From positions 26,733 to 90,732 of IMG/VR virus record IMGVR_UViG_3300021197_001902: a DNA stretch of 64,000 bases; one strand, 5' to 3'. Under the pieces are notes generated by a model. The model had not been told where the DNA came from, ran no database searches, and saw only the letters and a program-made list of their open reading frames with translations. Source of the stretch: a virus. This document shows, in pieces, positions 26,518 to 61,505 of this stretch (within the stretch, counting starts at the first letter, position 1; every line of letters begins with the position of its first letter). The position numbers and the translations under genes were made by a program.

Positions 26518-27741
26518 CTAAAAATCACTAAAAACTAAAAACTTAATCTTAGGATTTATTTCATTCAATTTCTGTTTAATTTTGTCAGAGATATTCCATG
26601 ACAAGATTATTGCATACACCTCATCGTATTCAGAAAATACCTCGTCTCCGCGGATAGGAATACTTGTTAACGGAGTGAGTTTGCCCTGCTTGTACTCTGA
26701 CGCGTCAGTTACATAATCAATTATCGAATTGTCTAAGTTCAGTAAGGTCAAGAAGGTATTCCCCTTCGCTGCGGCTCCAACAGCGACCAAGGAGCCGCCT
26801 TCGGCCTTAATTTCATAAATCCTCTTCAAGAAATTAAACTTTGACTCTTGCAGTCGATTTGTTAAGTTCTCGTATGTGCTTAGATTATAGAGGCCAATGC
26901 GGTCCTCTTCTTCAATCATGGTATTCACAAGCTCTGATTCTGCGGCGCCGGTCTTCTGAGCGTATACTCGCAGGGAACCTCCATGATAATCAACCACCTG
27001 AACATCTACTATAACCATGCCTGCACGGCGGAGCATCTCTCGGGCGGCCTTAACAGTTAGGTATGTAACGTGTTCGTGGTAGACCTGATCGATCTTCTCA
27101 GATTCAATGGAACATTTCCAGTAGGGAGCTTCAAATACGAAGGTACCGTCATCAGTCAATAAGGTAGAGGCTGCTTTGGCAAAGTCAACAGGATCCTCTG
27201 AGTGATTAAAAACATTGTTCGCCACTACTAAGTCAGCACTACCATAATCTGTTAAAACAAGCTCGGCAATTTGACTATCAAAAACTGCAACCTTAGTTTC
27301 TACACCATTTACAGTCTGTGCAATCTGAGAAACATGAGGTGAGGCGTCAACGCCAAGAGTCCTAGCGGAACGGTCGTCCTTAAACTGTTTGAGAAGGAAC
27401 CCATCATTAGAACCAACCTCAACCACGAAAGCGTCTTCTGATAAGGATACATTGTCAGACACCTCTAAACAAAAGTTGATCCAATGTCTTTTAGAGGTAT
27501 TGGAGTTAGAAGATGTGTAAGAATATTCGTACAGAGACGCATAACGATCATGAGGCTCCGTTTTAGATAATGTCTGTACATTTCCACATGACTCGCAAAG
27601 TACGCATGAAAGGTTGTACGTCACCAGCGGGTCGTACTTTTTGTCCATAGGGACAAATGTGTCAGCATATGCGTGGGCCCCTAAATCTAGGATACACTCC
27701 ATTTTAGTAGATTGGCATACAAGGCAGTGATTTCTTCTCAA
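26518..27741 (-). CDS. Sugar C-methyltransferase (TylC3/EvaC-like)
   Basis: 407 residues in the three-part layout of nucleotide-sugar C-methyltransferases: an N-terminal zinc-binding region (HCLVCQS and CVLCESCG), a central SAM domain with VEVGSNDGFLLKQFK (about residues 108-122) and HSEDPVDFAKAA, and a C-terminal Rossmann-like domain with VAVGAAAKGNTFL and ILSWN. Family members methylate C-3 of 4-keto deoxysugars to give branched sugars. It overlaps the CMP-sugar synthetase gene by 4 nt. Confidence 0.88.
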   Translation of the reverse strand: MRRNHCLVCQSTKMECILDLGAHAYADTFVPMDKKYDPLVTYNLSCVLCESCGNVQTLSKTEPHDRYASLYEYSYTSSNSNTSKRHWINFCLEVSDNVSLSEDAFVVEVGSNDGFLLKQFKDDRSARTLGVDASPHVSQIAQTVNGVETKVAVFDSQIAELVLTDYGSADLVVANNVFNHSEDPVDFAKAASTLLTDDGTFVFEAPYWKCSIESEKIDQVYHEHVTYLTVKAAREMLRRAGMVIVDVQVVDYHGGSLRVYAQKTGAAESELVNTMIEEEDRIGLYNLSTYENLTNRLQESKFNFLKRIYEIKAEGGSLVAVGAAAKGNTFLTLLNLDNSIIDYVTDASEYKQGKLTPLTSIPIRGDEVFSEYDEVYAIILSWNISDKIKQKLNEINPKIKFLVFSDF

Positions 27742-39666: not shown

Positions 39667-40455
39667 CTAAATCCACAAAGTCATGCACTGCAGCGAACCA
39701 CCAGATTTTAAAAATTCACTAGTGTTTATTAGTTTTACCTCATATCCTCTAACATCCAATTCTTCAAGAATTTTTTGTGGGCCTGCAGGCATTAAGATCC
39801 GACTATCATACACCACCGAATTGCATGCGAACATAGTTGCATCGTGAACATCCAATGGTATCAGTTCCGGGACATGTTTTTTCAATTTCTTAATAGCTGA
39901 TGGAGCAAAAGCGCCGGGGTAGTATAGAGCGCTCTGAGCCCCTAATAAGCAAAAACAAGTGTCCAAGTGATAGAAATTAGGATGACTTAATTTAAGGGGA
40001 ATCAACTCTAGGTCCAGAATCTTGGCTGCTCTTCTAATGCCGCCCAAGTCGGAGCGCCAACCATAGCCAGCAAACATCTTATCGCCCAAGATAACAGTGT
40101 CTCCGCAACCTTCAAAGTTAATCTGGCGCGGGAGGCGATGGGTTTCATAACCAGCTTCTTTAAACCACTTTTCATATACGTCAGTTTCAGGTTGTCGTTC
40201 TAGATGTCTGAAGTTACTTAAGACTACTTTGTTGTTACGAACTGTCCCGGCATTCGCTGTAAATACCATATCTGGAAGAGAGCGCTCTTGGTCGATCAGT
40301 TTTACCTCGACACCCCATTCTTGTATTCCATTTTTTAGTTTAAACCATTGGTCCATGGCCGCGGCCCTATTAACTTGGGCGCCCTGCATCCATGGGTTAA
40401 TAGAATATACTACATCAAAAAAAGTCGGAGGACATAATAAAACTTTATTGGACAT
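39667..40455 (-). CDS. Amidinotransferase-superfamily enzyme (dimethylarginase/arginine deiminase-like)
   Basis: 262 residues, close to the length of DDAH-type enzymes. Catalytic residues of the guanidino-modifying (pentein) fold are in place: MVFTANAG (substrate-binding Asp region), FEGCGD (about 115), HLDTCFCLL (catalytic His, about residue 168) and GGSLQCMTL with the nucleophilic Cys at the C-terminus. The reaction is hydrolysis or amidino transfer on arginine-like compounds. In a phage this is unusual: it may alter host arginine/ornithine metabolism. It lies between tRNA genes and may have moved with them. Confidence 0.85.
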   Translation of the reverse strand: MSNKVLLCPPTFFDVVYSINPWMQGAQVNRAAAMDQWFKLKNGIQEWGVEVKLIDQERSLPDMVFTANAGTVRNNKVVLSNFRHLERQPETDVYEKWFKEAGYETHRLPRQINFEGCGDTVILGDKMFAGYGWRSDLGGIRRAAKILDLELIPLKLSHPNFYHLDTCFCLLGAQSALYYPGAFAPSAIKKLKKHVPELIPLDVHDATMFACNSVVYDSRILMPAGPQKILEELDVRGYEVKLINTSEFLKSGGSLQCMTLWI

Positions 40456-44228: not shown

Positions 44229-44567
44229 TTATTCTCTATTTATGTCATATCTCTTCTTCATCTCAACAAGTGATCTTTGGTTAATCCCAAGTATCCTTCT
44301 TATTTCAATGTTAGTTTCAGCTACACTGATAGTGGCATTATACAATGCTTCTTTAGTAATATTAACCATTTTTGACCAGAGATTAAATCCATACAACTTA
44401 CCATTTGTAAGCCGCATAGAGCATTCTAACTTAAGTCCTATAACTTCTTCAAGGGTTAGAGAAGATAACATTATCTCAAATGCTTCAGATGATTTGCCTT
44501 CTTTACGAAGTTTCTTAGATAATGACTTGTTTCTACTAAAACCCTTTTCTATATTAGGGTTTGACAT
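44229..44567 (-). CDS. Fis/HTH-type DNA-binding protein
   Basis: 112 residues. The C-terminus ISVAETNIEIRRILGINQRS (about 80-99) looks like a Fis-type helix-turn-helix. The N-terminus is helical and basic. A transcription regulator is likely, acting perhaps on the adjacent head-cargo cluster. The plus-strand frame over the same bases is a shadow. Confidence 0.68.
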   Translation of the reverse strand: MSNPNIEKGFSRNKSLSKKLRKEGKSSEAFEIMLSSLTLEEVIGLKLECSMRLTNGKLYGFNLWSKMVNITKEALYNATISVAETNIEIRRILGINQRSLVEMKKRYDINRE

Positions 44568-44573
44568 GTATTA

Positions 44574-45398
44574 TTATTGTAAAAGACTATCGACTAAGCT
44601 TTCTAAGTTAATCTCACTTCCTTCTTCCAGTTCAAATTCAGGAAGCTCGGAGCTAGGCTCTCCTTCGTCAGGTTCTACCGGTGTATCTGGTGTTACATTG
44701 GCTGCAGCTGCCGGCGGGCCGGGGTCTTCGACCAATTCGCTTTCATATTTTTCGAAATATAAAACTAGATTCTTAATCAGGTATTCCTCGAACATGCTGG
44801 TATCTTTTGGATTATCAAGATTATCAAAAGCAGTTAAGATGTTCTTCTCTATATCATGGAAATCATCATACGCTCTGTTTCGCCCAGTTTTGTCTTCACC
44901 TTCGAGGCCGAACTCAGCTCGCTCGTCTGGCTCGGCGACAGGTACCTCAGGTTCAACATCAATAAAGGCAGGATCATCTTCAGGCTTGTCGGAAAGCGAG
45001 ACATTAATCTCTTCTTCTACGGGATCAAGTTCACCATCGGCGCCGGCTTCTTTGCGCTCTTCTTCAGGTGCAAGAGATTTTTCAACAGCATTTAAGATAT
45101 GGTTTTTGTACGAATCTCTCTGTTGCGCATCCGTAGTAAGAGACTTATACCCAGTCTCAATAACAGACAAGACATTGGAATTCTTAAGTAAATCTTCCAA
45201 AGTATTGATCCCAGTACTAGGGTGTTTTGCCACAGAAGCAACTGCAGACTGGCTCTCTATCAGGCCTCTGATAATGGTACGTAGTTGGTTCTCTTCTTCC
45301 AGACTCTTGGCACCTCTTTTGTCCAAAACGTGCCGAATGGCCTTGCGCACATTCTCGCGGAGCATTATCTCTTGTGTAAATTCCTTGCGTTCTATCAT
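44574..45398 (-). CDS. Acidic helical protein of the head-cargo-like block
   Basis: 274 residues from the ATG at 45398; an upstream TTG at 45404 is less likely. The N-terminal helix contains MLRENVRKAIRH, an L-x-E site near the start. The middle is Glu/Asp-rich, with a low-complexity Pro/Glu region and an ESLVDSLLQ end. No enzyme motif. The amino-acid bias and position resemble scaffold or internal head proteins of T4-like phages. It overlaps no neighbour and follows the 756-residue gene. Confidence 0.68.
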   Translation of the reverse strand: MIERKEFTQEIMLRENVRKAIRHVLDKRGAKSLEEENQLRTIIRGLIESQSAVASVAKHPSTGINTLEDLLKNSNVLSVIETGYKSLTTDAQQRDSYKNHILNAVEKSLAPEEERKEAGADGELDPVEEEINVSLSDKPEDDPAFIDVEPEVPVAEPDERAEFGLEGEDKTGRNRAYDDFHDIEKNILTAFDNLDNPKDTSMFEEYLIKNLVLYFEKYESELVEDPGPPAAAANVTPDTPVEPDEGEPSSELPEFELEEGSEINLESLVDSLLQ

Positions 45399-45400
45399 TA

Positions 45401-47671
45401 TCAACCCACCGTTATACCTAATAAATAGTCCATTACTTCATTAACTATCTCTTGTTCTTCTTTAATGAAGTTCTTGGGATGTCTCTTCTCTTTCTGTTCG
45501 GAGCCTACAATCTTAGGGGTCCGCATTCCAAAGGGACCTGCATAGCCCCCGCCGGCCCCGACGCCAGATAACTCTTCAAGTTTCCCTTGAAGTATATCAT
45601 ATATTTCTTGATTATAAAATCCCATGATCTTTTCGAAGTCTTCACGAGAGGCCCCCTTCAGGGCTTTTCTTAAAGTTGTACCAGACATTTCGCCAAAGCC
45701 AGGGATCTCAATCTCAACATGTGGAGCGACTGCAATATATCCGTGCTTGTCAAGCCCTACAAGCTCTTCTGTTGGCTTATAAGTTTTGTAGTAAGCAGGA
45801 GTCCCCTTTTTGGTTAAACCGTCTAGATTTGCGAATCTGGGGCTCTCACGCATATCCTTGCCACCAACAGCGAACACGACCGCGGTGTTCCCCGGATCGA
45901 AACCATCGGTAATCTCATCTGCCTGATATGGATTACGAGTCAGGATAATCTTATCCCCAGGGACACCATGCTCCACCGCGATACGTCTTTTCTCGTTAAA
46001 GCTTAAGGGAGATCCTTTTGTCGGATCCATAACATTTGATGTAGCAATAAAGGTATTCTCTACGCCAAACTTGTCGGCCAGAGCTTTATATGTTTGATAG
46101 TGATGTTGTCCCATTGGTTGGAACCTGCCGGGATAAATGGCGATCACTCTCTTTTGATCTTGTTCCATCGTTAATGTGTTTTTCAAAGCAGGCATTGTCT
46201 TCGAGATATACTTTTTAAGAGTACCAACGGCAGTATCAACCACCCTATCTCCAAGACTCTCATTCAAAGCCCAATTAACAGCCTCAGCCAAGGCAACCTT
46301 TACGTACCGCGCATCACGAACCAAAGAGGTAATTGGAACACCACCAAGAAGGTTTTCATAAAGTTCTTGATTCTTCTTTTCAACAGGAGGAAGGTTCTGG
46401 GACCACTCCAAGAGATTCTTAGTAACTGAGAACCCATCAGATCCCCAATATACTGTAAGACTTTCGGTTTGCTGGAACTTTGCACCCTTGTCGACTGCAA
46501 AGTTCGCTTTGCTAAATTCCAAACGATCAACAAATTTAACACCGTTTCCGTCGTTGTCAACGGCTACATAGCCTTCTGGGTTGCTTGCGACCAAATCGCC
46601 CGAACCATCATCAATAAAGTGTTTTGTGTTGTATACAGCGTTGTTGTATTTGTTGACAAAGATGTTCTTTGCTTCAAAGAGAAGTCGGGAAACTCTGAAA
46701 AGATTGAGAATATCTTCTTGTTTGCTATCAAAGGCTGCGAGCATCTCTTGACCTTTTTGGGTTGCTCGCATCTTTCCTTTTTCAGACTTAAGTTTATCAA
46801 TTCTTTTTTCTAGGCGACCTGAATACCAACGTTTGAAGCCTAGAAAAGATTTAGCTGGATCCTCAAGAAATTGACCGCCTCTGATTTCAGAGTTGATATA
46901 GATGTTAAGAAGGTCCATCGGCAGACCTTCATAATCAATCTTTTCATTGACCTGATCCGCAGCTGAAACTAATTCCTTAACCTTCGTCTCTTCATCTTCA
47001 GTTAACGTAACGGTTCCGGTATCATCGGTAAACCGAGCATCATCGAACCAAATTCCGGGCACTCGGTTCAGTCCACTGACATCAGCACCAAGTTTAACAC
47101 CGGTTGGACGCCCCTTCTCGTCTGCGCCGTTATATGTTGTATGAAACACAATTCCAAACTTAGATTGGCCTATTTCTTGACCAAGTTTCGAATCAACCGG
47201 AACAGTATAAATAAGTGTGTTTGGCTTAAATCGATAATGAGGCTCCCCATCAATATTGACTTTTGAGAGCATTTCATCATCAAACATGAAATCGCCTTGG
47301 AGAATGTTCTTAATTCCAAGCTTGGGTAACTCAATCAGCGCCCTGTTTAATTTATCAACAAGCCCTGGAGCACGGCCATGATTCTTCTGAATGTCCTGGG
47401 GTGTGTAGTTAATCTTCGGGGTTTCGTTAAAGACAGACTTGGTGCCAACAAAAAACTTGCCATTATTGGGATTGGTACCAGCAAAAATAGCAGGAGCCCC
47501 GTCCCATTTGACGGTGGTCTGAACACTGGAGTTGGTATTTCCCTTTAACTCTTCCAACAACTCAAGCAAAAATGCCCGAGCCATATCATAGCCTTTTGGA
47601 CCCTGTGTTAAAACAAGCTCTTCAAGGTGAGTTAAGTGAGTGTTTGCTTTGCCTTCATCCAGAAGGGACAT
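45401..47671 (-). CDS. Ligase-like (KxDG) and NMN-adenylyltransferase-like two-domain enzyme
   Basis: 756 residues. The N-terminus MSLLDE-GKANTHLTHLEEL has a possible [L/I]xE cleavage site. Residues about 55-215 carry TTVKWDGAPAIFAGTNP (KxDG motif I of covalent nucleotidyltransferases/ligases), FFVGTKSVFNETPK, LQGDFMFDDEML and FGIVFHTTYNG, similar to a cyanophage protein family (DUF6267) as I recall it. Residues about 510-700 form a cytidylyltransferase-like fold: VIAIYPGRFQPMGQHHYQTY (HxxH site) and GSPLSFNEKRR, as in NadM/NadR NMN adenylyltransferases. Overall a two-domain nucleotide-handling enzyme; substrates unproven. Confidence 0.75.
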   Translation of the reverse strand: MSLLDEGKANTHLTHLEELVLTQGPKGYDMARAFLLELLEELKGNTNSSVQTTVKWDGAPAIFAGTNPNNGKFFVGTKSVFNETPKINYTPQDIQKNHGRAPGLVDKLNRALIELPKLGIKNILQGDFMFDDEMLSKVNIDGEPHYRFKPNTLIYTVPVDSKLGQEIGQSKFGIVFHTTYNGADEKGRPTGVKLGADVSGLNRVPGIWFDDARFTDDTGTVTLTEDEETKVKELVSAADQVNEKIDYEGLPMDLLNIYINSEIRGGQFLEDPAKSFLGFKRWYSGRLEKRIDKLKSEKGKMRATQKGQEMLAAFDSKQEDILNLFRVSRLLFEAKNIFVNKYNNAVYNTKHFIDDGSGDLVASNPEGYVAVDNDGNGVKFVDRLEFSKANFAVDKGAKFQQTESLTVYWGSDGFSVTKNLLEWSQNLPPVEKKNQELYENLLGGVPITSLVRDARYVKVALAEAVNWALNESLGDRVVDTAVGTLKKYISKTMPALKNTLTMEQDQKRVIAIYPGRFQPMGQHHYQTYKALADKFGVENTFIATSNVMDPTKGSPLSFNEKRRIAVEHGVPGDKIILTRNPYQADEITDGFDPGNTAVVFAVGGKDMRESPRFANLDGLTKKGTPAYYKTYKPTEELVGLDKHGYIAVAPHVEIEIPGFGEMSGTTLRKALKGASREDFEKIMGFYNQEIYDILQGKLEELSGVGAGGGYAGPFGMRTPKIVGSEQKEKRHPKNFIKEEQEIVNEVMDYLLGITVG

Positions 47672-53969: not shown

Positions 53970-54371
53970 TTAAGTGAAATCTTTCGGGTCTCTATATCTC
54001 AGACGCACTTTCTCAGAAATTGGGATAGCTTCTCCATCACCATCGATTCGAACGAAGGTCATCTCAGTACACACCACCGCCCGTTGAGTGCCATTGTACA
54101 CAGAGTGTCTTCTGGCCTCCATAGCCAGCGTTAGAGACGTTTTACCGACCTTAGCCACCTCTCCATATATCTTGATGATTTGACCGGGCCTAGCGGGCCT
54201 CTCAAAGGTCATACTAGCGATATGTTTGGTAACCATTCGTGGTGTGTCAGCAACTTGAGCAGCAAAGGCCGCCGCAGCCTCATCCAGCCATGCCATCATA
54301 ATACCTCCGAAGAGATTACCATGATATCCTACATCATTCTTCTTTACGAAGTGTGTTGATATCAATTCCAT
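53970..54371 (-). CDS. Hotdog-fold acyl-CoA thioesterase-like protein
   Basis: 133 residues. NLFGGIMMAWLDEAAAAFA carries the conserved Asp in the hotdog helix, and KHIASMTFERPARPGQIIKI and MEARRHSV follow in the order of YciA/acyl-CoA thioesterases. Likely hydrolyses an acyl-CoA, with an effect on host lipid metabolism or membrane. It overlaps the coiled-coil gene upstream by 38 nt. Confidence 0.87.
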   Translation of the reverse strand: MELISTHFVKKNDVGYHGNLFGGIMMAWLDEAAAAFAAQVADTPRMVTKHIASMTFERPARPGQIIKIYGEVAKVGKTSLTLAMEARRHSVYNGTQRAVVCTEMTFVRIDGDGEAIPISEKVRLRYRDPKDFT

Positions 54372-55729: not shown

Positions 55730-56179
55730 TCATAGTTTCGGTCTGCTCTCAATGTAACTAGAGAAGATTTTGTCTATGAAGGGGTACATTCCCGAAAAAT
55801 TCCATTTTGGCTTCAGGTGATGCATGGTGTGATGGTAGTAAGAGTGCCGATAGTGCTTTCCACGATGGATAGCGAGGTGGTTATACGCATAGTAAAGAGA
55901 AAAGCTCAGTAACCCCACAGCAAATGAAAAAGAAATCCAGGCTACTCCAATATAAACCAATGTAAAAAAGAATCTTGCCCACTTAGGCATCACTATATAA
56001 GTTGGCAGCCGCGCCCCCCATGCATGCTTGTGATGCATCGCGTGATAGTGTACTAGAGGCCTCAAAACCTTAGTTTTACCCAACCGGCCATGAAAAACAA
56101 ACCGATGATTAAGGTAAACGAGCAGTGCTGCTGCAAAGTGTCCGACAAAAATCAAAGATAGTACTTGAAGTATTAGCAT
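55730..56179 (-). CDS. Fatty-acid-hydroxylase-like integral membrane protein
   Basis: 149 residues with hydrophobic segments (about 2-22, 60-100) and several His clusters: NHRFVFHGR, HYHAMHHKHAW, HLAIHRGKHYRHSYYHHTMH. The H-x3-H, HxxHH and H-x2-HH pattern binds a di-iron centre in the fatty acid hydroxylase/sterol desaturase superfamily. Probably modifies host lipid acyl chains. A TATAAT-like -10 (56186-56191 on the minus strand) lies very close to the start. Confidence 0.83.
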   Translation of the reverse strand: MLILQVLSLIFVGHFAAALLVYLNHRFVFHGRLGKTKVLRPLVHYHAMHHKHAWGARLPTYIVMPKWARFFFTLVYIGVAWISFSFAVGLLSFSLYYAYNHLAIHRGKHYRHSYYHHTMHHLKPKWNFSGMYPFIDKIFSSYIESRPKL

Positions 56180-56193
56180 ATTTGTATTATACT
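56165..56193 (+). promoter_or_regulatory. Candidate promoter of the YeaH-SpoVR-PrkA operon
   Basis: On the plus strand TTGAAG (56165-56170) is followed after 17 nt by TATACT (56188-56193), which differs from TATAAT at one base. Transcription would begin near 56200, giving a leader of about 57 nt with an AGGAAAG ribosome-binding site about 9 nt upstream of the ATG at 56257. The -35 match is partial. Confidence 0.5.
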
Positions 56194-56256
56194 GTTAGAA
56201 ACAGAAAAACTAAAATGTTTTTAGGCTTTTGTGCCCATTAGGAAAGTATTTAGTGC

Positions 56257-57504
56257 ATGAGCGTATTCCGCAAACACAAATCCATTGTCGACCGAGCCGC
56301 GAGTGATCGCGATCGCCACAAAAAGAAGATTGATAAGGCGATTAAAGAGTCTATCAAGGATGTAATAGCTGAAGAGTCAATTATTGGACAAAATGGCAAA
56401 AAAAAGATCCGAATTCCCGTACGCGGCCTTAAAGAATATCGATTTGTCTATGGATCGGGCGAAAAAAACCAAACGGTGGGTTCAGCCGGCGATCATTCCG
56501 TAAAAAGAGGCCAAAAAATAGGCAAAAAAAGAGCCCAGAAAGGTCAGGGCCAGGGTGGTGGCAAGGCCAGCGATAAAAAAGGTGATGAATATTATGATGT
56601 AGAAGTTTCTCTCGAAGAACTGGCTGAATATCTCTTTGCTGATCTAGAATTGCCCGATTTGGAGAAAAAACAGTTCCGTTTTGTTACCCAAGAAACAATA
56701 AAACGTAAAGGGTACCGCTTTCAGGGCATCAGACCTCGACTTTCTAAGAAAGAAACACTAAAAAGAAAGATTCGCCGCCAAAAAATGGCTGAAAAATTGG
56801 GAACGTACGACCCGGAAGGTGAAGAACGGTTCCCATTCCACAATTCTGATCTAAAATACCACCACATTAAGCCAAAAGACAAGGAAAACAGCGCCGCCGT
56901 CATCTTTTTCCTGATGGATGTATCCGGGTCGATGTCTCAAGCAAGAAAATATCTTGCAAGAAGCTTCTTTTTCCTTCTATATCAGTTTCTTAACCATCGA
57001 TATGAGCGAGTTGAAGTAGTTTTCATCTCTCATTCGACAATCGCAGAACGTGTCAATGAAGATGATTTTTTTAAAGTCGGAACTTTTGGTGGTACCATTG
57101 TTTCGAGTGCTTTGGAGAGAGAGCTTGACATAATTGACAAGGAGTATCACCCAAATACTTGGAATATTTATACTTTTTACTGTGGTGATGGCGAAAATTG
57201 GGCCTCGGACAACGAAAAATGTGTTGATATGTTCAAAAAAGTTAAGGAAGTGAGTCAACTGACAGCTTATTGTGAGATTAATGAGAACTATGAGGGACTT
57301 GACGACGATGCATTACACGACGACAGTAAGTTTAAGACAAGTCCATGGGCTAATTTTTCTGCTTGGAAGAACGAAAACTTGGAAAATCTATGGACGCGCA
57401 TGCGACCTATATGTGACAACACCTTCAAAAGAGTCATGATAGGTGAACCTGATCATATATGGAAAGCGTTTACTACGCTTTTCGGGGGAGGTAAACAAAA
57501 ATGA
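56257..57504 (+). CDS. yeaH: YeaH/YhbH-family protein (DUF444, UPF0229), vWA-like
   Basis: 415 residues, close to the usual 420-430. The N-terminus VFRKHKSIVDRAASDRDRHK and a basic Gly/Lys-rich linker are typical, and the C-terminal half is vWA-like with FFLMDVSGSMSQARK (MIDAS D-x-S-x-S) and the Thr-containing GTFGGTIVSSALE. In bacteria YeaH is co-expressed with the kinase PrkA (YeaG) and SpoVR (YcgB) during nutrient stress. First gene of a three-gene plus-strand operon; ATGA overlap with the next gene. Confidence 0.93.
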   Translation: MSVFRKHKSIVDRAASDRDRHKKKIDKAIKESIKDVIAEESIIGQNGKKKIRIPVRGLKEYRFVYGSGEKNQTVGSAGDHSVKRGQKIGKKRAQKGQGQGGGKASDKKGDEYYDVEVSLEELAEYLFADLELPDLEKKQFRFVTQETIKRKGYRFQGIRPRLSKKETLKRKIRRQKMAEKLGTYDPEGEERFPFHNSDLKYHHIKPKDKENSAAVIFFLMDVSGSMSQARKYLARSFFFLLYQFLNHRYERVEVVFISHSTIAERVNEDDFFKVGTFGGTIVSSALERELDIIDKEYHPNTWNIYTFYCGDGENWASDNEKCVDMFKKVKEVSQLTAYCEINENYEGLDDDALHDDSKFKTSPWANFSAWKNENLENLWTRMRPICDNTFKRVMIGEPDHIWKAFTTLFGGGKQK

Positions 57505-58808
57505 GTAATTGGACAGTTTCAGACTTAGAAAAATGGGACGAAAAGATATGTCAGGTAGGTAAAGATTTTGGATTGGATTGGTTTCCAATCGATTATGAGA
57601 TCATTGACTATGCCGAGATGCTTGGAGCCATGGCCTATACTGGTCTCCCAACTCATTATCGCCACTGGTCGTTCGGAAAAGAGTACGAAAGAACTCACAC
57701 ACTATACAACATGGGGCAAACGGGCCTTCCGTATGAGATGATTATCAACTCAAACCCTAGTATCGCATATCTAATGAGGGAAAACGCTCTTTACATTCAC
57801 ATTTTAACTATGTCGCACTGTGTAGGTCACAGCGATTTCTTCAAAATGAATAGAATGTTTGAGCACACAGACCCTGATAACATTATTACCAGCTTTAAAT
57901 CAGCCGGTAAGTACGTTCGACAGCTAATTGAAGACCCTTCAATCGGTATTGACAAGGTAGAAAGAATCTTGGATGCAGCGCATTCGATCAAATATCAGGT
58001 ACCACGTTTTCCCGGCATTAAATATAAAACAAGAGATCGCATAATTGAGATCGAAAAAGACAAGATGGCTGACAACCCAGGCTACAAACCAGATCTGGCC
58101 AAGAATCCATTACGTCCTGAATACAATTTAATTCGATTCATTGCGGAACATAGCAAGCACCTACAAGAGTGGGAGAGAAACCTAATTCTTATTGTGGAAG
58201 AGTCCTCAAAGTATTTTATCCCTCAAGCCCTTACAAAAGTGATGAACGAAGGTTGGGCATGCACCATTCATCAAAAGATTATTAATGAACTGAATCTGCC
58301 TGATAGCCTTTATCTTCCTTTTGTCAAGCTTCACAACCAAGTGATTCGCCCCCATCTTGGGCAACTTAATCCTTATCACTTGGGATATACTCTCTTTCAA
58401 AAGATTATTGAAGAAAAAGGTTTCGAGGAGGCCATGACAATTCGTGAGGTTCACAATGATATAACGTTTCTTCGCTTTTATACTGATGAAGAATTCATGC
58501 GGGAGCATAATTATTTTAGTTACTCTTTTGATAAGAAACAGCAAAGCAGCACAGTCGATGATATATCTGACGAAGGCGGCTGGGAAAGTGTACGAGATGC
58601 CATGATTACCAACGTGGGTCTTAATAGAGTACCAGTGGTATTTGTGGACGAAATTGAAAAAGACAATACTTTAGCAATTGTTCATGAACACGACGGTCGA
58701 GATTTAGAAATGAATTACGCTCGAAAGGTATTTGAAAATATCAAAGTACTTTGGGGCGATGAGGTGAAATTAATCACCATAGTGGAAGACGAAATATGGG
58801 AGTTTTAG
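57501..58808 (+). CDS. spoVR: SpoVR-family protein
   Basis: 435 residues, a little shorter than the usual 470-510. The conserved start WTVSDLEKWDEKICQVGKDF, EMLGAMAYTGLPTHYRHWSF, YLMRENALYIHIL with SHCVGHSDFFKMN, and the NEGWACTIHQKIINE block identify the family. SpoVR acts with PrkA in sporulation and stress contexts; its biochemistry is unknown. It overlaps yeaH by 4 nt and is 1 nt from prkA. Confidence 0.94.
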   Translation: MSNWTVSDLEKWDEKICQVGKDFGLDWFPIDYEIIDYAEMLGAMAYTGLPTHYRHWSFGKEYERTHTLYNMGQTGLPYEMIINSNPSIAYLMRENALYIHILTMSHCVGHSDFFKMNRMFEHTDPDNIITSFKSAGKYVRQLIEDPSIGIDKVERILDAAHSIKYQVPRFPGIKYKTRDRIIEIEKDKMADNPGYKPDLAKNPLRPEYNLIRFIAEHSKHLQEWERNLILIVEESSKYFIPQALTKVMNEGWACTIHQKIINELNLPDSLYLPFVKLHNQVIRPHLGQLNPYHLGYTLFQKIIEEKGFEEAMTIREVHNDITFLRFYTDEEFMREHNYFSYSFDKKQQSSTVDDISDEGGWESVRDAMITNVGLNRVPVVFVDEIEKDNTLAIVHEHDGRDLEMNYARKVFENIKVLWGDEVKLITIVEDEIWEF

Positions 58809-58809
58809 C

Positions 58810-60744
58810 ATGACCACAACAAACAAATTTCTTGAATCGGTTAGAGAACACCGTGAGAGTAAGAAAACAGAAAAGTTCTCTGGGGTACTGGAAGACTACC
58901 TGCGTTTAATTGAGAAAGACAAGGGTATTCCCGCTCTCGCTCATAAAAGACTTTATGAGAAGATTTTATCAGAGGGCTTAACCATCTTGGACGAGACTGA
59001 TGGTCGTTGTAACAAATTGTTCAACGGCGAGAGGGTAAAGACATATGATTACTTCTCAGACCAGTTCTTTGGAATGGAACGGCCACTAGAAAAAGTTGTC
59101 CGCTTTCTGCATTCGGCTGCAATGAAGGGTGAAGAGAGTCGACAAGTTCTTTTGCTCCTTGGTCCAGTAGGCGCAGGTAAATCTGCTCTCGTAGAACACA
59201 TTAAGGGCGCCCTCGAAGAGTGTGATCCGATTTATGTGTTGGATGGTTGTCCAATTAGAGAAGAACCACTTCACTTAGTTCCGCGCTCTTTACGTGAGGA
59301 GTTTGCTGAGTCATACGGTGTCAAGATTGAAGGTGACCTTTGTCCCGTTTGTCGTCATCGTCTTATCAACGAGTTTGGTGGCGACTATACTAAATTCCCA
59401 ATCACTCAGAAGGCGTTTTCTGTACGAGGTCGAAAAGGTGTTGGTGTTGTCCCTCCCATGGATCCCAATACACAGGATACAAGTCTTCTTATTGGTTCCG
59501 AAGATATTTCGAAGCTTGATCTCTATCCCGAAGATGATCCGCGAGTACTCTCACTTAACGGAGCTTTCAACGTCGGCAACCGTGGCATCGTAGAATTTGT
59601 TGAGGTCTTTAAGAACGAGATCGAATTCCTTCATACAATGATCACAGCAACCCAGGAGAAGAATGTTCCTTCCCCAGGTAAGCAGGCAATGATCTACTTT
59701 GATGGTGTCATCCTTGCGCACTGTAATGAAGCAGAGTGGAACAAATTTAAGGCTGAGCATACTAATGAAGCTATTCTTGATCGTATCGTTCGTGTTAACG
59801 TCCCGTACTGTCTTGAGGTTGATCAGGAAGTTAAAATCTACAAGAAGCTTATCGGCCGTTCTGACTTTGACTGTCACATTGCTCCACATACACTTCAGGT
59901 GGCCGCAATGTTTTCGGTTCTTTCTCGACTCAAGTCATCCAATAAGGTTGATGCCCTTACCAAGATGAAAATCTATAACGGTGAGGAAATCGTTGAGAAG
60001 GGTCTTATCAAGAAGGTTGACATCAAGGATCTCCGCGAGGAAGTAGAAGAGGAAGGTATGACCGGTATCTCTACTAGGTTTGTTATGAAAGCGATTGATG
60101 CTGCTCTGGCCGATTCAACCAAGAATATGATCACACCAATTTCTATTCGTGAATCACTTATTAAGCAGGTTAAGGAGCAAATCGTTAGTCCAGATGAAAG
60201 AAAGCGATGTCTGCACTTCCTACAGAAGGTTCTTCATGAAGAGTACCTCTCTATACTTGAGAAGGAAATTACAAAGGCTTTTGTAACAGCGTATGAGGAA
60301 CAGGCGGAGTCTCTCTTTAATAACTATCTTGACCATGCTGAGGCTTATGTCAACGCAACCAAGGTTAAAGATCAGGTGACCAACGAAGAGATGGAAGCAG
60401 ACGAAAGGTTCTTGGCTTCGATTGAAGAGCAAATTGGAATTAAGGGATCGGCAAAGAATAACTTCCGTGCTGATATCACTTCTTACATGTTTGCGAAGTT
60501 ACGTCGTAATGAGACTATTGATTGGCGTTCTTACGGCCCACTCCGCGAAGCAATTGAAAGCAAGCTTGTTGCTTCGGTTAGGGATATATCTCGCATTGTA
60601 ACCAAGTCGAAAAGCCGCGATACCAAGCAACAGAAGAAGTTTAATGCAATGGTGCTGACCCTTATTGATAACTACGGTTACAATGAGGACTCTGCAGAAG
60701 AGGTAATTAAGTTTGCTTCGAATAACCTATGGCGCGACTCATAA
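58810..60744 (+). CDS. prkA: PrkA-family serine protein kinase/AAA+ ATPase
   Basis: 644 residues, the length of E. coli YeaG. FFGMERPLEKVVRFLHSAAM precedes Walker A GPVGAGKS (118-125), a Cys pair CPVCRHRL, and a C-terminal region matching the PrkA domain. PrkA autophosphorylates and phosphorylates host proteins; recent work also reports AAA+ protease-like activity in Bacillus. It is separated from SpoVR by 1 nt and followed by a terminator. Its codon choice (more GGT, CGT, GTC) looks somewhat different from the AT-rich yeaH gene. Confidence 0.94.
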   Translation: MTTTNKFLESVREHRESKKTEKFSGVLEDYLRLIEKDKGIPALAHKRLYEKILSEGLTILDETDGRCNKLFNGERVKTYDYFSDQFFGMERPLEKVVRFLHSAAMKGEESRQVLLLLGPVGAGKSALVEHIKGALEECDPIYVLDGCPIREEPLHLVPRSLREEFAESYGVKIEGDLCPVCRHRLINEFGGDYTKFPITQKAFSVRGRKGVGVVPPMDPNTQDTSLLIGSEDISKLDLYPEDDPRVLSLNGAFNVGNRGIVEFVEVFKNEIEFLHTMITATQEKNVPSPGKQAMIYFDGVILAHCNEAEWNKFKAEHTNEAILDRIVRVNVPYCLEVDQEVKIYKKLIGRSDFDCHIAPHTLQVAAMFSVLSRLKSSNKVDALTKMKIYNGEEIVEKGLIKKVDIKDLREEVEEEGMTGISTRFVMKAIDAALADSTKNMITPISIRESLIKQVKEQIVSPDERKRCLHFLQKVLHEEYLSILEKEITKAFVTAYEEQAESLFNNYLDHAEAYVNATKVKDQVTNEEMEADERFLASIEEQIGIKGSAKNNFRADITSYMFAKLRRNETIDWRSYGPLREAIESKLVASVRDISRIVTKSKSRDTKQQKKFNAMVLTLIDNYGYNEDSAEEVIKFASNNLWRDS

Positions 60745-60751
60745 GCTCCCA

Positions 60752-60964
60752 CTAAGTATCAGCGTCAACAACGGAGGGGTCGGAAACGGCCCCTCCTGCT
60801 TTAATTACAACCAATGCATCTTTCTTGCACCATTGAGTGTGTTGTGGCGATCCTTGGAATACAACTTGAACCCAGGGGTTCTCGGGATCTAAGTCTCCGA
60901 ACATATCGATAACAACGCCGATTTGCCTTGTTTTTGCCCAACGGACTAAATCACCTTTTTTCAT
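60752..60964 (-). CDS. Small SH3/KOW-like hypothetical protein
   Basis: 70 residues. MKKGDLVRWAKTRQIGVVID starts a compact beta fold with VQVVFQG and WCKKDALVVI, common among small marine-phage proteins. Function unknown. Its 3' end lies over the terminator of the opposite operon and 8 nt from the prkA stop. Confidence 0.7.
   Translation of the reverse strand: MKKGDLVRWAKTRQIGVVIDMFGDLDPENPWVQVVFQGSPQHTQWCKKDALVVIKAGGAVSDPSVVDADT
60773..60806 (+). terminator. Intrinsic terminator of the YeaH-SpoVR-PrkA operon
   Basis: On the plus strand GGAGGGG (60773-60779) pairs with CCCCTCC (60790-60796) and the helix continues inward through a G-U and CG/CG pairs to a GAAA tetraloop, followed by TGCTTTAATT. 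It lies 29 nt after the prkA stop and inside the coding region of the opposite-strand gene. Confidence 0.8.
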
Positions 60965-60980
60965 ATATTAACAAGAGAGA

Positions 60981-61505
60981 CTAATGATAGGTCTCGTCAT
61001 CACTCCCGGCAAAATTGAAAAACTTAGCCTCCGTGGCCTTTTCGGGATCGGATGATAAAACCAGCTCTTGTTTCTTGGTATCAACATACACCGAAACGTA
61101 ATCATCATCGGTTACATTCTTCATATCATCCATAGTAAGTTGAAAGTCTCCGTACTTAACAACCAGCGCAGTCAGGACCGAAGCCATCAGCGGCGCATCC
61201 TCATTGAAAGGGAGCATACCATCAACTAGTCCCACAGCATCGGGGTCAGCATCCGGAAGTCGATGAACTGCCGCCGAAGCTGCCGCAATTTTTTTCTTTG
61301 TTTCCGCGACTAATTTTTCATTTCTCAGTAGCTGGTCTTGTATGCTTTGATTAAACTCTCGTAATCCTTCACGGATAAGAGCATTCTCTCGCATCTTATC
61401 AAGGTTGTGTCGGGAAAGTTTATCATTGTTTTTAAAGCCCTTCCACAGTACAAAGGACAGACACCCATAAAATGCAAGAATAATCAGATGAACATACAGC
61501 AGCAC
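60981..61505 (-). CDS. Membrane-anchored hypothetical phage protein
   Basis: 174 residues with a GTG start at 61505 preceded by GGTGGAG. One N-terminal hydrophobic helix (LLYVHLIILAFYGCLSFVLW), then a coiled-coil region (SIQDQLLRNEKLVAETKKKI) and a soluble tail with LVVKYGDFQLTMDDMKNVTD. The tail recalls a conserved marine phage protein family. Function unknown. Confidence 0.68.
   Translation of the reverse strand: MLLYVHLIILAFYGCLSFVLWKGFKNNDKLSRHNLDKMRENALIREGLREFNQSIQDQLLRNEKLVAETKKKIAAASAAVHRLPDADPDAVGLVDGMLPFNEDAPLMASVLTALVVKYGDFQLTMDDMKNVTDDDYVSVYVDTKKQELVLSSDPEKATEAKFFNFAGSDDETYH

Follow-up and report, generated by a model that had tools for sequence, protein, structure and literature searches.

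Genes for PrkA, YeaH and SpoVR are widespread in bacteria, where the biochemical role of their products (kinase, protease or AAA+ remodeller) is unsettled. The locus described here raises the question of why a phage should carry all three side by side, where it obtained them, and what they would do during infection. It lies in a 64 kb stretch (the window) of the 90,732-base IMG/VR record IMGVR_UViG_3300021197_001902 (positions 26,733 to 90,732), and a first-pass annotation had described it as a complete stress-kinase operon that looked like a moron acquired from a host. The annotated trio of intact, full-length and tightly coupled genes (56257-60744) was confirmed by open reading frame and Pfam analysis, with every Pfam match above its gathering cut-off. 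The genes and their candidate signals are as follows.

56257-57504, plus strand: yeaH/yhbH-type gene (DUF444), 415 aa; Pfam DUF444, E=9.5e-106
57501-58808, plus strand: spoVR gene, 435 aa; Pfam SpoVR, E=3.9e-111, plus SpoVR_C
58810-60744, plus strand: prkA gene, 644 aa; Pfam AAA_PrkA, E=8.6e-146, and PrkA C-terminal domain, E=3.8e-80
56165-56193, plus strand: candidate sigma70-like promoter upstream of yeaH, TTGAAG-N17-TATACT, 9 of 12 consensus matches
60773-60806, plus strand: predicted intrinsic terminator, 10-bp GC-rich stem (60773-60796), then a T-rich tail

The yeaH and spoVR genes share 4 bases, and a single base separates spoVR from prkA. Adjacent and co-directional, they encode the components by which the PrkA-YeaH-SpoVR stress module is recognized, namely the AAA_PrkA and C-terminal PrkA domains, a DUF444/von Willebrand A (vWA) protein with a MIDAS, and a SpoVR family protein. 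The YeaH score (384.8 bits) falls below the NCBIfam spore_yhbH equivalog cut-off (467.95 bits), thus the window protein is not a strict YhbH equivalog. The proposed terminator is borne out by a stem-loop that folds and by a hairpin with a T-run that recurs, with changed sequence, in loci L010, L011, L058, and L012. The proposed promoter scores at chance level when taken alone (13 promoter-like sites in the scanned region, 11.9 expected); however, a similar site occupies nearly the same position in L010, L011, L058, L012, and L014. Between this site and yeaH, a small palindrome CTAAAATGTTTTTAG (about 56210-56226), which is possibly an operator or an RNA hairpin, is conserved in the leaders of L010, L011, and L058.

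The trio was also said to run opposite to all other genes. Nearly all convincing genes of the window indeed lie on the minus strand, but a 400-aa plus-strand ORF at 44242-45444 may be an exception; neither this ORF nor the 276-aa minus-strand ORF that overlaps it has a Pfam or PHROGs match. Several other features of the window were recorded on the way. The motif TATAAATA, which reads TATTTATA on the gene-rich minus strand, occurs 10 times against 2.7 expected, nine of them on the plus strand, and several sites are located immediately upstream of minus-strand gene starts; it may serve as a promoter or leader element of the phage. Near the trio, there is a hot-dog thioesterase-like gene that is kept in near relatives with a dN/dS of about 0.03, and farther away a gene whose product seems unusual for a phage.

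6742, 16677, 34399, 40458, 40780, 42588, 47206, 53955, 55226, plus strand: TATAAATA sites
57165, minus strand: TATAAATA site
53970-54371, minus strand: hot-dog (4HBT) thioesterase-like gene
39667-40455, minus strand: protein matching the dimethylarginine dimethylaminohydrolase / arginine deiminase families

An assembly chimera or mis-binned bacterial DNA at the trio, which the first-pass annotation had named as one way in which its reading could fail, has nothing in its favour except the bacterial nature of the genes, and its probability is negligible. The window encodes baseplate wedge and PhoH genes, and its record carries a T4-type portal about 80 kb away from the trio. The same arrangement of an HNH gene, the trio on the other strand, and then the family encoded at 60981-61505 was found in six other contigs. 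Among the tested records with close PrkA relatives, 18 of 27 have a portal and 18 of 27 a terminase; contigs that carry both genes beside the trio, the portal being of the T4 type, reach 306 kb, and the clade and gene order of the trio are phage-specific. Conserved flanks, together with the presence of portal and terminase genes alongside the trio, thus rule out a chimera or contamination. The nearest isolates by portal, Microcystis phage Mel-JY01 and the Flavobacterium phages immuto, are only about 37-38% identical, which indicates that the phage group is uncultivated.

The search of other phage genomes that had been suggested found the trio in further IMG/VR loci, in Thermus phages, and in huge phages. 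At least 209 IMG/VR loci have PrkA relatives by one set of patterns, and 550 by a broader alignment. We retrieved 80 loci from the first scan (209 relatives), keeping those most similar to the window, and 79 of them contain yeaH-spoVR-prkA whole and in the same order; the 80th begins just before spoVR, so that yeaH is cut off. In the marine loci, the trio is intact amid several unrelated sets of flanking genes. In the 77 loci with enough neighbours, it is co-directional with them in 59, mixed in 10, and opposite in eight, which are mostly the window and its near kin; the opposite-strand layout is therefore local. Thus, the view of the trio as a self-contained opposite-strand unit, with a promoter and terminator of its own, holds for the window's near kin and is not a general layout. 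In another sub-clade, a family of about 440 aa without a Pfam match is encoded directly after prkA in 27 marine loci, and it is possibly a functional partner of the trio.

L057, 9889-11211, and 38 other loci: the family of about 440 aa

The origin of the trio was addressed by phylogenetic analysis. In the PrkA, SpoVR, and YeaH trees alike, the marine phage copies form one clade (support 99-100) that adjoins a Clostridia/Flammeovirga/Myxococcota branch of the Clostridia type, associated with sporulation; in the tree of PrkA, every marine phage row falls in a single clade (support 100) within this branch, although the viral sampling favoured loci most similar to the window and viral PrkA of another type would therefore not show among them. 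A bacterial origin of the complete trio, as first proposed, is thereby upheld; the phylogeny meant to identify the donor points to the Clostridia-type branch as a whole rather than to one sister cellular group. The nearest true cellular PrkA proteins are 56-61% identical and belong to Clostridia, with some Deltaproteobacteria/Myxococcota and Flammeovirga also close; the closest is about 61% identical over its full length, and PrkA of the E. coli type only about 33-36%. An apparent closer donor, the Methylococcaceae MAG TMED69 (64%), was rejected, as its 305,838-base contig (L090) has a T4-type portal, a terminase, and a phage gene order and is a T4-like phage binned in the MAG. The bacterial prkA-yhbH(yeaH)-spoVR operon of the Clostridia/Bacillota type has the same three full-length genes, domains, and invariant motifs as the window; however, it is cellular rather than borne by a T4-like phage, the window-type copies form their own clade, and the order is permuted, with yeaH-spoVR-prkA in the retrieved marine loci and prkA-yeaH-spoVR in the nearest cells.

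These data contradict the notion of a recent moron. The phage copies constitute one clade, their gene order is absent from the nearest cells, and their GC3 (0.39-0.43 versus a mean of 0.435) is genome-like rather than foreign. Furthermore, in 19 phages the portal distances correlate with those of PrkA, SpoVR, and YeaH (Mantel r of 0.85, 0.86, and 0.75, respectively; p = 3e-4). Phylogeny, composition, and co-diversification with the portal thus rule out recent acquisition: the marine T4-like phage lineage took the trio from bacteria long ago and kept it intact. The three genes are among the most conserved locally and are under strong purifying selection, with a dN/dS of about 0.03; where dS was measurable against close relatives, many values being saturated, it is 0.025-0.032 for PrkA, 0.031 for SpoVR, and 0.050 for YeaH.

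Carriage is nevertheless patchy. PrkA is present in three of 11 contigs of at least 150 kb for which portal or terminase, and not PrkA, served as the recruiting marker, a count that leaves out the query's own contig and includes contigs that may be incomplete. The trio as a universal core gene of the clade is excluded by this count, which also argues that the lineage can do without it, though incomplete contigs may contribute. YeaH was detected in exactly the three PrkA-positive contigs among ten tested, and wherever both proteins were looked for they are present or absent together. On the portal tree, the presence of the trio requires five changes versus 9.2 in shuffles; because this set mixes PrkA-recruited with marker-recruited and possibly incomplete contigs, our conclusion is limited to an old and clustered trio that is lost or absent in some cases.

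Other phages carry the trio outside the marine clade. In the PrkA tree these are the Thermus phages, two huge phages of proteobacterial type, and one huge phage of Myxococcota/Planctomycetota type, and the SpoVR and YeaH trees give the same phage groups. The trees thus give at least four captures of the trio by phages as a whole unit (marine, Thermus, and two huge-phage types). The Thermus phages (phiYS40, TMA, phiLo, Lalka, and MN1) share the order yeaH-spoVR-prkA with the window in the three examined, with an extra gene between spoVR and prkA in phiYS40; however, their PrkA is about 33% identical to that of the window, and they represent a separate acquisition in all three trees, on long branches whose exact placement is unsure. 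The huge metagenomic phages LR745206, LR756502, LR756504, and LR756511 (595-642 kb) likewise encode all three proteins; they differ in having prkA first in the three examined and reflect two separate cellular sources, one proteobacterial and the other of the Myxococcota/Planctomycetota/Chloroflexota type. For the Ralstonia jumbo phage RsoM2USA, no record of which turned up in the collection we searched, SpoVR (ORF28) and PrkA (ORF30) have been reported (PMC8504454); its best matches are proteobacterial and its vWA ORF19 lies apart from these two. Enterobacter phage LAU1 was discounted as a carrier: its yeaG/yeaH genes are located at the record end, its PrkA groups with proteobacterial cells, and no spoVR match was found, hence these genes look like a chromosomal flank.

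As to what the encoded proteins do, their key residues are retained. The vWA domain of YeaH has an intact MIDAS (D221-x-S223-G-S225, T280, and D311), SpoVR has H106-x3-H110, E79, E250, H257, and H278, and PrkA has the Walker A motif GPVGAGKS (K124) and other AAA+ residues, all invariant across phages and cells. An active-site mutation in prkA, against which the first-pass annotation had cautioned, is thus absent as far as the ATPase is concerned. Window PrkA matches a solved relative, PDB 9xip, annotated as 'Serine protein kinase' (4.5e-97). The AlphaFold2 model of YeaH is moderate overall (pLDDT 73.9) and good in the vWA part, which matches vWA/MIDAS domains including the Rea1/MDN1-MIDAS, with the NorQD complex at rank 50. 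The SpoVR model is confident (pLDDT 91.6); its predicted fold has no PDB match and one match to a viral predicted structure. The pairing of an AAA+ ATPase with a MIDAS protein is predicted to resemble NorQ/NorD, a MoxR-type AAA+ with a vWA partner, and the Rea1 MIDAS, and in the window a MIDAS-bearing vWA partner is indeed encoded beside the ATPase, a likeness of working mode only. PrkA differs from NorQ in matching its own family, AAA_PrkA, with AAA_16 and AAA_22 as the only weak extra matches; nothing points to MoxR membership.

By combining the model matches with the literature, we infer that the most likely activity is that of an AAA+/MIDAS machine acting on SpoVR or on targets bound by it, and the most likely role the rewiring of host stress physiology. 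In the reading we prefer (probability about 0.5), uncultivated marine T4-like phages would have acquired the whole module once, from a bacterium whose version was of the Clostridia (sporulation) type; after a change in gene order, the module would have been passed down in the lineage with some losses. PrkA would form an AAA+ ATPase ring, YeaH would serve as its MIDAS-type adaptor, as NorD does for NorQ and the MIDAS domain for the Rea1 ring, and SpoVR would be a client or effector of the resulting complex. ATP-driven remodelling of SpoVR-bound targets would hold host metabolism or translation at a low, sustained level, so that the phage could complete a slow infection in starved cells. Consistent with this scheme, YeaG and YeaH together act as a metabolic brake in nitrogen-starved E. 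coli (PMC10954441, PMC4664914), and for B. anthracis PrkA a clade III AAA+ hexamer was modelled, while neither kinase activity nor clear protease activity was detected (PMC13001217). Against it, NorQD is one of many vWA matches and vWA folds are widespread, and the brake is known from E. coli, whose PrkA type is the distant one noted above. A broader variant, for which we would claim only tentative standing, has a portable ATP-driven machine acting on SpoVR-bound RNA or translation complexes and captured whole, repeatedly, by unrelated large phages to bring about or maintain a starvation-like quiescence that prolongs productive infection. SpoVR crosslinks to and binds RNA in B. subtilis (PMC12456014); the phage protein is acidic overall (48 K+R versus 70 D+E), therefore generic RNA binding is not favoured.

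The stress-kinase function originally assigned to PrkA has become doubtful. It is unlikely that PrkA acts as a serine kinase which rewires stress signalling by phosphorylating host proteins, YeaH and SpoVR being accessories: the C-terminal kinase-like domain is present, and K426 of E. coli YeaG, reported as essential (PMC4664914), aligns with K427 in the window, but D occupies this position in PrkA of the Thermus phages and of one huge phage, and all aligned marine phages have S in place of R232, a second residue for which an essential role in E. coli has been reported. Moreover, the study that detected no kinase activity in B. anthracis PrkA explained this by a kinase domain that lacks a P-loop (PMC13001217), so that the literature on phosphotransfer conflicts with PMC4664914, in which YeaG needs residues of both the AAA+ and the C-terminal domains. 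A role in countering host defence, or in supplying a stress function missing from the host rather than slowing it, would suit a conditional benefit as suggested by patchy carriage and repeated independent capture. A MAG with one such phage contig has no over-threshold PrkA outside that contig, but the pairing reflects co-binning only and the MAG may be incomplete. The trio has no match in the PADLOC defence library, and a defence system was rejected on this ground; this library does not list counter-defence, and we regard the role as quite improbable. The last alternative, an AAA+/MIDAS chaperone that assists in assembling heads or tails, draws on the loci L018, L042, and L045, where the trio lies directly after apparent capsid/neck genes, and on Thermus phage Lalka8, where it is located between a minor head gene and TerL. 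In most marine loci, the window with its distant portal included, the trio is outside the head module; related T4-like phages without it evidently exist, and the homologues of all three genes are cellular stress genes. Such a virion function is accordingly very improbable.

Hundreds of marine viral contigs keep the trio as an inseparable unit under strong selection, and different large phages have captured it on at least four occasions; this points to joint action of the three proteins and to a function that benefits the virus during infection. Given that one lineage kept the trio intact and that unrelated large phages acquired it on three or more further occasions, its probable use by phages is to control a starving infected cell or to keep it going. 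Phage-borne copies in Thermus and huge phages were already public, as was the finding that spoVR is the most abundant sporulation-type gene in viruses of marine oxygen-minimum zones, read there as inducing sporulation in a paper that does not mention prkA or yeaH (PMC8940887). A partial literature search found no paper that treats the three genes as a single phage-borne unit. New here are the breadth of the trio, the finding that its copies in marine T4-like phages share one origin and a permuted gene order, its joint inheritance, and its repeated capture as a whole. These results call into question whether viral spoVR should be read as a sporulation gene, and the phage copies offer an independent handle on what a widespread bacterial module does. 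The results also suggest that phages in the ocean commonly control the starvation physiology of their hosts.
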